Part shown: one piece after another, positions 2,455 to 63,508 of the stretch
Position numbering within the stretch: the first letter of the stretch is position 1
Layout of the letters: each line of letters begins with the position of its first letter
Origin: Gammaproteobacteria bacterium
Lineage (GTDB): Bacteria; Pseudomonadota; Gammaproteobacteria; Porifericomitales; Porifericomitaceae
Direction of reading: 5' to 3'
Assembly (NCBI GenBank): GCA_014238615.1
Contig: JABAAT010000065.1
Span: 1 to 64,000, forward strand
DNA: 64,000 bases
Notes under the pieces: model-generated
What the model saw: the letters and a program-made list of their open reading frames with translations, nothing else
The model's database searches: none
Told to the model about the DNA's origin: nothing
Program-made: the position numbers and the translations under genes

Positions 2455-4218
2455 ATGGCGGCGCTCTGCGCCGTCACCGCGGCCGCGGAACCCGATATGG
2501 ACTGGCCGCTGTACGGCAACGACCACGGCAACCAGCGCTACAGCCCCCTCCGGCAGATCGACCACACCAACGTAGGGCAACTGCGGCCGGCCTGGAGCTA
2601 CGCCACCGGCAAGCGCGCCACCTTCCAGAGCTCTCCCATCGTCAGCGACGGAGTGCTCTACCTCACCACCCCCTTCAACGACGTCATCGCCCTGGAGGCC
2701 GACACCGGCGCGGAGCGATGGCGCTACCACCACGAGCTGCGGCAGGACCGCTTCTGCTGCGGCCCGGCGAACCGCGGACCCGCCGTGGCGCACGGCAAGG
2801 TCTATACCACCACCATAGACGCCCGGCTGCTGGCCCTGGACCAGCAAAGCGGCGAGAAGCTGTGGGAACGCACCCTGGCCGAAACCGCGCATCCGGGGGA
2901 AAGCCTGGAGCCGGTAGCGGAGATCAGCGAGTTGCGCGGCGCCCGCCGCACCGGCTACACCGGTCCCGGAGCCAACATGGCTCCACAGGTAGTCGGCGAC
3001 CTGGTGCTGGCCGGCATCACCGGGGCCGGCTACGGATTGCACCTGGAATTGGACGAGGACGGCAAAAAAGTGCTTTCGGTCAGCGGCGCTGCCGGTGAAA
3101 AGCACGGACTCAGGGGCTTCATCGCCGCCTTCGATGCCCACGACGGAGAGGAACAATGGCGCTGGTTCAGCGTCCCTGAACAAAACTGGGAGGGAAACTT
3201 CAGCGCCGACACCCGCTACGGCATGCCCCTGCCCAGGAACATCCAGGCCGAACGCGCCGCGAGCGGGAAACACCGGGACAGCTGGAAACGCGGCGGCGGC
3301 TCCATCTGGACCACCCCCGCCTACGACGCGGAAAGAGGACTGCTGTTCCTGGGCACCGGCAACCCCGCCCCCCAGATGGACGACTCCACGCGCCCTGGCG
3401 ACAACCTCTACACGGTCAGCCTGGTCGCCCTGGAGATCGCCAGCGGGCGCCTGCGCTGGTACTACCAGCAGGTGCCACACGACCGCTGGGGCTACGACGT
3501 GGCGAGCCCCCCCGTACTCCTTGACATCGAGGTAGAGGGAGCACCGGTGGCGGCGGTGGCCCAGGCCAGCAAGTTAGGCTGGGTCTTCTTCCACGCCCGC
3601 GACGACGGCCGCCTGCTCAGGAGGTCCAAGCCCTTCGTGCCCCAGCGGATGCTGTTCGCCGCACCCACCGAGACGGGCACCCGCATCAGCCCCGGCACCC
3701 TGGGCGCCGTCTCCTGGTCTCCCGCGGCTCACCACCCGGGGCGACAACACATCTACGTGGCCGGCATCCACCAGACGGCCCTGTTCTACCAGCGCAAACT
3801 CCAACCGACCCCGGAGCAACCCTGGCCCAGCGTCAGCTTCTTCCGCGCCGACCCGGATGCCGAGCAATGGGGCAACGTCACCGCGATCCACACCCGGAAC
3901 GGCGACATCGCCTGGCGGAAGCGCACCGCGCAGCCCATGGTGGGCGGCCTCCTAGCCACGGCCGGCGACCTCGTCTTCACCGGAGAAGGCGACGGCAACT
4001 TCCTGGCCTTGGACGCAGGCAGCGGAGCCACCCTGTGGAGCCACCAGGCACCCTACGGAGTCAACGCCCCTCCCATCAGTTACCGCGTCCGGGGCTGCCA
4101 GTACATCGTCGTCGCCGCCGGCGGCAACCGGCTCTTCGGATACCCCACCGGAGACCTGCTGCTGGCCTTCGCCCTCCCCAACTGCCGCGGCCAGGACGCG
4201 CCGGACCCGTCAAAATAA
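2455..4218 (+). CDS. PQQ-dependent dehydrogenase-like quinoprotein (beta-propeller)
   Basis: W-motif repeats (ALEADTGAERWRY, ALDQQSGEKLWER, ALDAGSGATLWSH), vicinal Cys-Cys (FCCGPANRG), HDRWGYDVASPP segment; N-terminal start uncertain. Confidence 0.85.
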   Translation: MAALCAVTAAAEPDMDWPLYGNDHGNQRYSPLRQIDHTNVGQLRPAWSYATGKRATFQSSPIVSDGVLYLTTPFNDVIALEADTGAERWRYHHELRQDRFCCGPANRGPAVAHGKVYTTTIDARLLALDQQSGEKLWERTLAETAHPGESLEPVAEISELRGARRTGYTGPGANMAPQVVGDLVLAGITGAGYGLHLELDEDGKKVLSVSGAAGEKHGLRGFIAAFDAHDGEEQWRWFSVPEQNWEGNFSADTRYGMPLPRNIQAERAASGKHRDSWKRGGGSIWTTPAYDAERGLLFLGTGNPAPQMDDSTRPGDNLYTVSLVALEIASGRLRWYYQQVPHDRWGYDVASPPVLLDIEVEGAPVAAVAQASKLGWVFFHARDDGRLLRRSKPFVPQRMLFAAPTETGTRISPGTLGAVSWSPAAHHPGRQHIYVAGIHQTALFYQRKLQPTPEQPWPSVSFFRADPDAEQWGNVTAIHTRNGDIAWRKRTAQPMVGGLLATAGDLVFTGEGDGNFLALDAGSGATLWSHQAPYGVNAPPISYRVRGCQYIVVAAGGNRLFGYPTGDLLLAFALPNCRGQDAPDPSK

Positions 4219-4224
4219 GCCGAA

Positions 4225-4420
4225 TAAAGAAAGAAATAGCCACTAAAGTTTCTTTAGGACCGGCATGGCGTCGCTAAGGTAAAGTCTCCTTACCTTAAGC
4301 AAGGCTAAAGAAAGAAAAGACCTCTAAAGTTTCTTTAGGACTAGCATGGCGTCGCTAAGGTAAAGTCTCCTTACCTTGCTCAAAGATAAAGAAAGAAATC
4401 GCCCCTAAAGTTTCTTTAGG
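4225..4420. repeat. 81-bp tandem repeat, about 2.6 copies, each with CTAAAGTTTCTTTAG dyad
   Basis: taaagaaagaaa starts at 4225, 4306 and 4387 (exact 81-bp spacing); CTAAAGtttCTTTAG at 4243, 4324 and 4405; copies 1-2 also carry AAGGTAAagtctccTTACCTT. Confidence 0.95.
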
Positions 4421-16669: not shown

Positions 16670-17622
16670 GACGCGTCCTCCTTGACCGGGTCATCCGCTT
16701 TCTCCTTATCTGGCGCTGTCTCCAGGGGTACCTCCGCCTTGACCGCCTCCGGAGACTTTTCCTCCAGGGGTACCTCCGCCTTGACCGCCTCCGAAGACTT
16801 TTCCTCCAGAGGTACCTCCGCCTTGACCGCCTCCGAAGACTTTTCCTCCAGGGGTACCTCCGCCTTGACCGCCTCCGGAGACTCTTCCTTCAAGGAGACC
16901 TCCGCCTTGGCCGTCTCCGGAGACTTTTCCTCCAGGGAGACTTCCGCCTTGACCGCCTCCGGAGACTCTTCCTTCAAGGAGACCTCCGCCTTGACCGCCT
17001 CCGGAGGCTTTTCCTTCAAGGAGACCTCCACCTTGGCCGTCTCCGAAAACTTTTCCTTCCTGGGAGGCTTGCTGCCGGGAGGGGCGCTCCTGGGAGTGCC
17101 ACCTGGTGCGGCAACGTGCTGAAATTCAGAAATCGGTTTGCCGCGGCGCACCGCCACTTCCTCGGGTGAAACAATGGAGCGCAAGCCCTTGCAAGTGGCG
17201 CGCACCACGTTGATGGGATTGCGCGAACCGAAAGATTTAGCCAATACGTCCCGCACTCCGAGCACCTCGAACATCGCGCGCATCGCGCCGCCAGCGATGA
17301 TGCCGGTTCCTGGTGAAGCCGCCTGCATATAGACTTTGGCGGCACCGTGGTTCGCGGTCACAGCGTAATACAGGGTGCCATCGTTCAGGGGCACCCTGAA
17401 CATATCGGCGCGCGCCCGCTCCAGGGCTTTCTGGATCGCGGCCGGCACCTCCCGCGCCTTCCCACGACCCATACCGATGCGACCGTCGCCGTCGCCGATC
17501 ACGGCGAGCACCGAAAAGCCGAAGATGCGACCTCCCTTCACGACCTTGGTGACCCGGTTGATATCCACCAGCTTTTCCAACAGACCATCCCCGGAACTCA
17601 TTGCGTTGGATATGGAACTCAA
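16666..17622 (-). CDS. rpsE: 30S ribosomal protein S5 with ~145-aa repetitive C-terminal extension
   Basis: S5 core ([38 protein letters not shown]...[19 protein letters not shown]), then repeats of EAVKAEVxLxEKSP; 318 aa in total. Confidence 0.96.
16719..17060. repeat. 42-bp tandem repeat, about 8 copies, inside rpsE
   Basis: CCTCCGCCTTG-type core recurs at exact 42-bp spacing (16730 + 42n to 17024), encoding a 14-aa unit E(K/E)SPEAVKAEV(P/S)L(E/K). Confidence 0.96.
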
Positions 17623-60089: not shown

Positions 60090-60971
60090 CTACTCCTGCA
60101 AACCCAGTTCCTGGGAAAAGCTGAATTCCTTGTTCTTGGTGTCGGTGGCCTTCACCTTCAGAAGACCCCCGGAACGTTGCGGAACCATGAAGAAGCGAAA
60201 GCTTGGATCTTCGCTAATGGAAAAAGTCAGGGTGCCGCTCAACACCGGTGCGTCATCATAGGAAACTTCAACGCGGTTAAGAAAATAAGGGATAGGCTTC
60301 CGGTTGGTGCGGGGATCAATGGACATGCCGGTGACATTCGGATGGCTGATCTGCAGCTGCACCAGTCCGGGTTCTTCCAGCTGCCATACGCCACGCTGCT
60401 TGACGCGCGTGTTGCCTAACAGCGCCAGGGCTTCCGTCAGGCTTTTGCCGGGCGGCGCGGAACACCCCCCGGCAGAGCGTATATAAGACTTGTCCATGTG
60501 CAGCGTCCCATCGTTTAATTCGGCGATGACACGTATGTAGGTGAAGAAATCAATGCGCACGCGCATCGCCAGGTCAGCCCGACCGTTCATCGGGGACAGT
60601 TCAAACTGTCCTACCAGGGGCACCGGGTTGCGGTCCGCGAAAACATACATGCTCTTGATATACCTTTCCTCGGCCTGCGGGATTTTGCTATGGATGGAGA
60701 TCGGTACGATGGCAGCGTCCTCAGCCCGGAAAGGCACCTTGATTTCAACGATGTCCTGGCCCGCTCCTTCAAGGATCGTGCGCTCGGCAAACACCTGCGG
60801 GCGGATCTCTTCCATCCAAACCCGCTCGGACTCCCGTTCGCGCGCTTCGGGTTCCGCCTGGGCGCTACGGGCACTCCCCAAGGTGAGCAGGACCAGAAGA
60901 GCCGAAACAGGAAAACCGAGGGCAACGCCGCCCAGGAACGGAACCCCCCGGGGAAAAATCTTGCTGCACAT
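60090..60971 (-). CDS. Quinoprotein dehydrogenase-associated SoxYZ-like carrier
   Basis: SoxY-like N-half (VWMEEIRPQVFAERTILEGAGQDIVEIKVPFRAEDAAIVPISI), GGCSAPPGKS Cys segment, SoxZ-like C-half; next to xoxF. Confidence 0.85.
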   Translation of the reverse strand: MCSKIFPRGVPFLGGVALGFPVSALLVLLTLGSARSAQAEPEARERESERVWMEEIRPQVFAERTILEGAGQDIVEIKVPFRAEDAAIVPISIHSKIPQAEERYIKSMYVFADRNPVPLVGQFELSPMNGRADLAMRVRIDFFTYIRVIAELNDGTLHMDKSYIRSAGGCSAPPGKSLTEALALLGNTRVKQRGVWQLEEPGLVQLQISHPNVTGMSIDPRTNRKPIPYFLNRVEVSYDDAPVLSGTLTFSISEDPSFRFFMVPQRSGGLLKVKATDTKNKEFSFSQELGLQE

Positions 60972-61491: not shown

Positions 61492-61520
61492 TTGAAATTA
61501 AACCGCCTCTACTCCAAAAT
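61492..61520 (+). promoter_or_regulatory. Candidate sigma70-type promoter for xoxF
   Basis: TTGAAA (61492-61497), 17-bp spacer, CAAAAT (61515-61520). Confidence 0.4.
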
Positions 61521-61581
61521 GCATACATCTAAGATGGGGCCAGTGTTTCCCGGGCCCACGCACCTTTTCGAACCGCTGTTC

Positions 61582-61630
61582 TGGAGCCAGGCAACGGTGC
61601 GATAGTATCTAAGAGATACAAGCGGCTCCA
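61582..61630 (+). promoter_or_regulatory. Nested inverted repeats in the xoxF leader (candidate RNA element or operator)
   Basis: TGGAGCC (61582-61588) pairs with GGCTCCA (61624-61630) and encloses GTATCT-AAG-AGATAC (61605-61619). Confidence 0.6.
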
Positions 61631-61669
61631 CAATGTACATATGACTCTTTTTTAAGGAGGATACTAAGC

Positions 61670-63508
61670 ATGAAACATTTCGTACGAGTTATGTTGCTCG
61701 TCGGGGCTGTTTTTCTTGCTCCGCATTCGGCGTTTGCAAACGCTGAGGTCGCGAAGCTGAATGACAACCCGAGCTACTGGGCTTTCCCCGGCGGCAACTA
61801 CTGGAACTGGCGCTACACGGAGTTGGATCAGATCAACTCTCGGAACGCGAGCAAACTGCAGGCCGCATGGACCTTCTCTACCGGCGTACTGCGTGGTCAC
61901 GAGGGTGGCCCCCTGGTACTTCCTGAAAGCGCCACGGGCCTGGGACACGACACCCTGTATATCCACAGCGCGTTCCCCAACAACGTGTTCGCCATCAATC
62001 TTGAGACCCTTGAGATTGTCTGGGAATATTCGCCGCAGCAGGACTGGGACGGCGTTGTTCCGGTGATGTGCTGTGACACCGTTAACCGTGGCCTCGGCTA
62101 CGGGGAAGGCAAGATCTTCTTGCAGCAGGCTGACACCACCCTGGTGGCGCTTGAAGCCGATACCGGCGATAAAGTCTGGTCTATCAAGAACGGCGATCCC
62201 AGCAAAGGCGAGACCAACACCAATGCCCCGCACATCATCAAGGACAAGGTGATTACCGGCATGTCCGGCGCCGAGTTCGGTGTGCGTTGCTGGCTTGCCG
62301 CCTACGATATCGATGACGGCAGCCTGGTCTGGAAAGCTTACAGTATGGGCCCGGACGACGATATGCTGTTTGACTCGAACACCACCTCGCTGGGCCAAAA
62401 GGTCGGAAAAAACTCCAGCCTGAAAACCTGGCAGGGTGATCAGTGGAAGCAGGGCGGTGGTTCAACCTGGGGCTGGTGGCCTTATGACAAGCAAGAGAAT
62501 CTTGTCTATTACGGCTCCGGAAACCCTGGCACCTGGAACCCCGTGGTGCGTCCCGGTGACAACAAGTGGAGCATGACTATCTTCGCCCGTGACGTTGACA
62601 CCGGTGTCGCGCGTTGGGTTTACCAGATGACCCCGCACGATGAGTGGGACTACGACGGCGTCAACGAGATGATCCTGGTGGACATGAAGGTCAAGGGTAA
62701 AAACCGCAAGGCCCTCGTGCATTTCGACCGGAATGGCTTCGCTTACACTATGGACCGTATCAATGGTGAATTGCTGGTCGCCGAAAAGTACGACCCCGCC
62801 GTGAACTGGGCGACCCATGTTGACATGAAGACGGGCCGTCCGCAGGTAGTGGCCAAGTACGCCCCCGGCCACGGTGGTGAGGATGTCAACTCGACGAATA
62901 TCTGCCCCGCCGCGCTCGGTACGAAAGACCAGCAGCCTGCTGCCTATTCTCCGCGTACCGGCCTGTTCTACGTGCCCACTAACCATGTGTGCATGAACTA
63001 CGAGCCTGTCAGCTACGCCGCGGGCGGCAACCAGTACGTCGCCGGGCAGCCCTGGGTGAACGCTATTCTGTCCATGTTCCCCGCTGGAGCCGTGACCAAA
63101 GACGGCACCAACAACCTGGGCAACTTCATCGCCTGGGACGCTGACAAGGGTGAGATCGTGTGGTCTCTTCCCGAGCGTTTCTCGGTTTGGAGCGGTGTCT
63201 TGGCGACGGCCGGCGATGTCGTGTTCTATGGCACCCTGGAAGGCTATCTGAAGGCCGTGGACGCGAAGAGCGGCAAACTGCTTTGGAAGTTTAAGACTCC
63301 TTCCGGCATTATCGGCAACACCAACGCCTGGTCCCACAAGGGCAAGCAGTACGTTGGCGTGTTGTCCGGTCTGGGTGGTTGGGCCGGCATCGGCTTCGCC
63401 GCCGGCCTGGAAAAAGACACTGACGGCCTCGGTGCTGTTGGCGCCTACAGGGGTCTGGGTGACTTCACCCGCCTCGGTGGCGTGTTGAGCGTCTTTAGCC
63501 TGCCCTAA
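61670..63508 (+). CDS. xoxF: XoxF-type PQQ-dependent methanol dehydrogenase, predicted lanthanide-dependent
   Basis: Signal peptide; [24 protein letters not shown]; vicinal Cys [24 protein letters not shown] carrying the extra Asp typical of XoxF; SD aaggagg. Confidence 0.95.

Follow-up and report, generated by a model that had tools for sequence, protein, structure and literature searches.

A putative H-type pseudoknot in the xoxF leaders of one gammaproteobacterial clade, with a candidate sequence-diverged member

The xoxF locus

In the window (the whole 64,000-nucleotide stretch of DNA that was analysed), the product of the open reading frame at 61670–63508 scores 690 bits as a PQQ methanol/ethanol dehydrogenase (TIGR03075, cut-off 480) and groups among XoxF proteins in a tree. 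The 5′ leader of this gene carries nested inverted repeats singled out in an earlier note, and their letters and positions were verified: TGGAGCC (61582–61588), GGCTCCA (61624–61630) and GTATCT-AAG-AGATAC (61605–61619). The Shine-Dalgarno sequence (SD) named there was likewise found in place before xoxF, a gene call that the TIGR03075 match backs. The features of the leader, with helices labelled as we read them, are:

61492–61520, + strand: weak sigma-70-like promoter, TTGAAA-17-CAAAAT, 9/12 consensus
61568–61580, + strand: putative P1 5′ strand, UCGAACCGCUGUU, from a constrained pseudoknot scan; covariance model R2 with filters off picks the same strand
61582–61588, + strand: putative P2 5′ strand, UGGAGCC, inside the P1 loop; the left arm of the closing stem in the earlier note
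61590–61602, + strand: putative P1 3′ strand, GGCAACGGUGCGA; 11 of 13 positions pair with 61568–61580, with 2 mismatches
61605–61619, + strand: P3 hairpin, GUAUCU-AAG-AGAUAC, inserted in loop 3 and missing from the family consensus
61624–61630, + strand: putative P2 3′ strand, GGCUCCA, which pairs with the P1 loop and so closes the pseudoknot
61654–61660, + strand: xoxF SD, aaggagg (core AGGAGG, 61655–61660), 9 nt 5′ of the ATG at 61670
61659–61666, + strand: GGAUACUA, overlapping the SD end and the spacer
61670–63508, + strand: xoxF, PQQ (lanthanide-type) methanol dehydrogenase, 612 aa (TIGR03075, tree)

The promoter-like site, if used, would put the entire element into the transcript; this is a weak indication, and a promoter scan of 44 leaders found no consistent sigma-70 site upstream of P1. 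No intrinsic terminator was found in the window's xoxF leader, so that control is probably translational.

Two further features lie 5′ of the gene. The intergenic segment 61150–61189 holds a 20-bp direct repeat, TGAATTTAACAGATTTTATC (two copies, 85% matches), which could be a pair of activator sites. The divergent neighbour of xoxF (60090–60971, − strand) encodes a quinoprotein dehydrogenase-associated SoxYZ-like carrier (TIGR04557, 222 bits).

A conserved element in related leaders

XoxF homologues were taken from GTDB genomes and from the window's family, and their 5′ leaders were compared side by side. An element common to 17 related leaders is absent from more distant xoxF genes. In its canonical form a hairpin, P1, presents the loop [UC]G[AG]UCUC, which pairs with a downstream GAGAUCA (P2; the downstream strand is P2′), and an almost invariant GGAGGUC-AUG follows; GAGGAGGUCAUG is invariant among the 17. 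Since the loop UGAUCUC is complementary to the downstream GAGAUCA, the architecture is that of an H-type pseudoknot.

Covariation was measured in two alignments. The 17 leaders were aligned with MAFFT without regard to structure, which keeps this alignment free of any bias from fitting to P1. It gave 56 double-change cells over P1 and P2, against 17.7 in shuffled alignments (0/500 as high), with double changes in 11 of 14 P1 pairs and 2 of 7 P2 pairs. Structures slid along the same alignment reached at most 23 such cells, and sliding the partners by 1–3 columns brought the covariation score down to a third or less. The final alignment holds 44 leaders, 40 of them distinct, and was fitted to P1 by a model, so that it is biased towards P1. 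Over the 40 distinct leaders the entire structure gave 169 double-change cells against 60.5 shuffled (0/500) and a covariation score of 0.555 against 0.226, with double changes in 14/14 P1 pairs and with P2 paired in 97% of cases. P2 alone, in 36 leaders, had 11 double-change cells against 3.2 shuffled (0/500), among them U-A to C-G and A-U to G-C changes.

The same alignments bear on whether the repeats could act as DNA. The earlier note had allowed for an operator, and inverted repeats formed by the P2 and P3 arms near a promoter-like site are what a transcription factor might bind. This reading is very improbable. P1 covaries pair by pair while the distance between the P2 arms differs from leader to leader, and the arm sequences are completely different between close relatives. 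Moreover P1 contains 83 G.U and 10 A.C cells (shuffle expectation 105 and 47); one strand, the transcribed one, favours G.U over A.C, which indicates that it is the strand under selection and that it carries the structure.

By comparison among leaders, then, P1, the loop-to-P2 pairing, the position directly before the xoxF SD and the restriction to one clade are demonstrated at the level of sequence. Many canonical leaders also have a small palindrome between P2′ and the SD (alignment A3, e.g. L006 1837–1943), which reads CUGUUAACAG, UUGGUUAACCAA or CACUGUUGACAGUG in some leaders and AUGAUCAAC in others; it may be a mini-hairpin or a protein site.

Distribution

Of 369 genomes in the class, 18 had a match to covariance model R1, which was built on P1 and sequence; two matches at unrelated places (L114 and L115, E about 0.008) were dropped as chance, which leaves 16. 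All 20 genome matches with E < 0.002 lie directly 5′ of xoxF, and in four genomes both xoxF paralogues have one. Model R2 found matches in 11 of 36 genomes of one order. A phylum-wide draw of 399 genomes searched with R2 yielded nothing convincing; its two matches had E values of 0.004–0.01, as expected by chance over that many genomes, and were dismissed. In none of the genomes searched did the element precede pqq or metal-uptake genes; only xoxF genes were matched. Similarity searches with the leader DNA in 56 genomes of the family and class returned just chance matches of about 27 bp.

In the protein tree the element marks a single XoxF clade, supported at 100% SH-aLRT; the window's family falls within it, at 99%. 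Three members of this clade, L007, L009 and L016, are without the canonical element. Among the carriers is the cultured methylotroph Methylohalomonas lacus. A metagenome-assembled genome labelled Klebsiella pneumoniae (L008, CAMATU010000020.1) has an xoxF of this kind with its leader, is probably mislabelled, and has a leader identical to that of a different genome (L126). High pseudoknot-like scores were also seen in the 125 bases before two distant xoxF genes, in Rhodospirillaceae (L081, 0/200 shuffles) and Thiolinea (L048, 3/200).

The window copy

The earlier note had drawn a three-way junction closed by the outer 7-bp stem. Folded in isolation, 61582–61630 does take that shape (−17.6 kcal/mol, z −3.13, equalled by 1 of 200 shuffles). 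In its 121-nt context the folding z-score is just −0.69, and single-sequence folding is therefore weak evidence here; comparison has to decide. It has the first helix, P1, begin 14 nt 5′ of that interval, and makes the outer stem most plausibly P2, the second helix of an H-type pseudoknot. The idea of a structured cis-regulatory RNA gains from the covariation in related leaders, whereas the junction shape finds no support and is probably wrong. A GCA-ACGG-TGC mini-helix proposed as part of the junction exists in the letters and competes with P1, which the homologues and R2 support; it is probably not native structure.

Family-like pseudoknots were sought with a scan for P1 and P2 with short L1 and L2 and an L3 of 8–35 nt, limits that were chosen after these leaders had been seen. 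The window's P1, UCGAACCGCUGUU/GGCAACGGUGCGA, around UGGAGCC paired with GGCUCCA, gave a score reached by 10 of 16000 dinucleotide shuffles; P1 alone is unexceptional (z −1.6). The two further distinct leaders from the window's family have matching architecture (L089, 0/4000 shuffles; L087, 75/4000), with P2 sequences entirely different among the three. As in the canonical leaders, the window's element lies directly upstream of the xoxF SD. When R2 was run unfiltered on both strands of the 64 kb, the xoxF leader (61564–61668) ranked first, in a register that fits P1 and the SD. Its score was 10.2 bits (E 1.4, not significant), barely above the 9.8 of the next match. The canonical loop [UC]G[AG]UCUC and the SD spacer GGUC are replaced in the window by UGGAGCC and AUACUAAGC, and we accordingly class its leader as a diverged relative and not a canonical member.

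That the window copy is not homologous at all, its repeats being chance features of a leader that has lost the element, is improbable. The E value of 1.4 and the three other clade members lacking the canonical element speak for such a loss. Against it stand the shuffle frequency of about 6e-4 for P1 and P2 in the register of the canonical element, the matching architecture of L089 and L087, and the nesting of the window's family in the motif clade. Most simply, the window leader descends from the canonical element, keeping the fold and losing the letters; the fold of this pseudoknot seems to outlast its own sequence.

Coupling between the loop and the Shine-Dalgarno sequence

The canonical loop has a second potential partner, the SD and its spacer (GAGGUCA), with which it can pair in 95% of cells. 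This pairing has no covariation, because its SD side is fixed. GGAGGUC stands before the start in 39 of 44 motif leaders, among them L106, where it is retained despite a shifted start codon; among 63 other xoxF leaders, one has GAGGUC near its start. Clade lineages without the canonical loop (the window's family, L007, L009 and L016) are likewise without this spacer; in L118 and L130 the loop is retained and the spacer changed. The tendency of loop and spacer to be kept or lost together favours a two-state leader. P2 is stronger than the loop–SD pairing by about 2 kcal/mol on average and is the more stable in 28 of 36 leaders, so that an open SD is the expected default in the absence of any intervening factor, and masking of the SD by the loop may never win.

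A masking partner was also sought in the window itself. There UAGUAUCU (61603–61610) can form 8 contiguous pairs with GGAUACUA (61659–61666), an alternative to P3 that would mask the SD; 124 of 2000 shuffles did equally well, within chance, and the pairing is suggestive only.

Proposed mechanism and alternatives

The explanation we prefer, and consider probable though well short of certain, is that the xoxF leader is a cis-acting H-type pseudoknot controlling translation initiation, of which the window has a sequence-diverged member. Such a pseudoknot would probably set the amount of XoxF made. In canonical leaders, the loop UGAUCUC held on P2′ (GAGAUCA) would leave the SD free and translation on; the same loop on the SD spacer (GAGGUCA) would mask the SD and turn translation off. 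The pseudoknot would then be the on-state, holding the ribosome-binding site open. The loop of the window's leader has lost its match to the SD; the pseudoknot appears to be retained, and any masking there may have shifted to the inserted P3. A metal, PQQ, a C1 metabolite, a protein or co-transcriptional folding alone might act as trigger.

Naming the trigger gives a special case of this explanation, a ligand-sensing riboswitch, in which direct binding of a lanthanide ion, PQQ or a C1 metabolite to the pseudoknot would free the xoxF SD. We think this doubtful. The general architecture and SD-proximal site do resemble small pseudoknot riboswitches (preQ1-I, PMC11625349), canonical members hardly vary in P2, where pairing alone would permit the drift seen in the window's family, and how lanthanides reciprocally regulate methanol dehydrogenases still counts among the open questions (PMC12848317). 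The exclusive tie to xoxF is mild evidence against a general PQQ or metal riboswitch, since one of that kind might be expected at pqq or uptake genes too; several pathway genes per genome are a frequent, if not strict, riboswitch trait, and xoxF genes alone were matched. P2 and the SD complementarity explain the letters that are most strongly conserved, a separate binding pocket is not evident, and the window's family has replaced all of those letters with the fold retained. The fuller proposal of a new gammaproteobacterial riboswitch class, whose pseudoknot would sense lanthanide (or PQQ) and set methanol dehydrogenase translation, with a diverged subtype in the window's family that retained the fold under entirely new letters, is correspondingly speculative and in our judgement improbable.

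Another reading involves no switching: in a highly expressed mRNA, the leader might simply be a static structure that stabilises the 5′ end or serves as a ribosome standby site. This has something to recommend it, and we regard it as possible, if on the unlikely side: the stability of P2 relative to the loop–SD pairing, the association with a single gene and the freedom of P2 to vary in the window's family all suit a structure that merely stands. What a mere stabiliser leaves unexpected is the near-invariant loop and SD spacer, and their joint loss. A covarying RNA tied exclusively to xoxF, and present in the cultured Methylohalomonas lacus, offers a concrete and testable candidate for a post-transcriptional control point of XoxF levels.

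Relation to known RNAs

The earlier note had recognized no known riboswitch class in the leader, and Rfam bears this out: in Rfam 15, known riboswitches included, the window leader has no match at the gathering threshold, 13 loci with canonical or window-type leaders have none either, and a relaxed threshold brought only chance matches for the window and related leaders. A literature search, outside which lies Weinberg et al. 2017 (doi 10.1093/nar/gkx699) with a prior listing there possible, returned no paper joining xoxF and a pseudoknot; those joining xoxF and riboswitches deal with other riboswitches, none with one of xoxF's own, and two large structured-RNA surveys do not mention methanol, xox or PQQ. 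A pseudoknot leader at the SD is a known kind of regulator; the family and its gene context appear to be new.

The class I preQ1 riboswitch is a small H-type pseudoknot (PMC11625349). The xoxF element is similarly a small H-type pseudoknot of the 5′ leader adjoining the SD of the gene it would control, with loop/SD competition as a possible expression platform. It differs in its longer P1 (12–14 bp), in an SD outside P2, and in its conserved letters and gene context (xoxF), and its ligand is only hypothetical. In SAM-II and other pseudoknot translational riboswitches a leader pseudoknot governs SD access, as is proposed for xoxF; unlike them the xoxF element has no Rfam match, an SD some 20–35 nt 3′ of P2′ and a single-gene regulon. 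The association of a pseudoknot at the ribosome-binding site with a single gene recalls the autoregulatory leaders of Escherichia coli rpsO and the alpha operon, which bind their cytoplasmic ribosomal protein products. XoxF is a periplasmic enzyme, unlike those products, and direct autoregulation by XoxF is therefore unlikely.

Other repeats in the window

Two tandem repeats lie elsewhere in the window. One, at 16720–17066, has a 42-bp unit in 8.2 copies (89% matches) and is possibly coding, since its period is a multiple of three. The other, at 4224–4420, has an 81-bp unit in 2.4 copies with palindromic stretches inside, and lies just 3′ of a distant PQQ dehydrogenase homologue (2497–4125).
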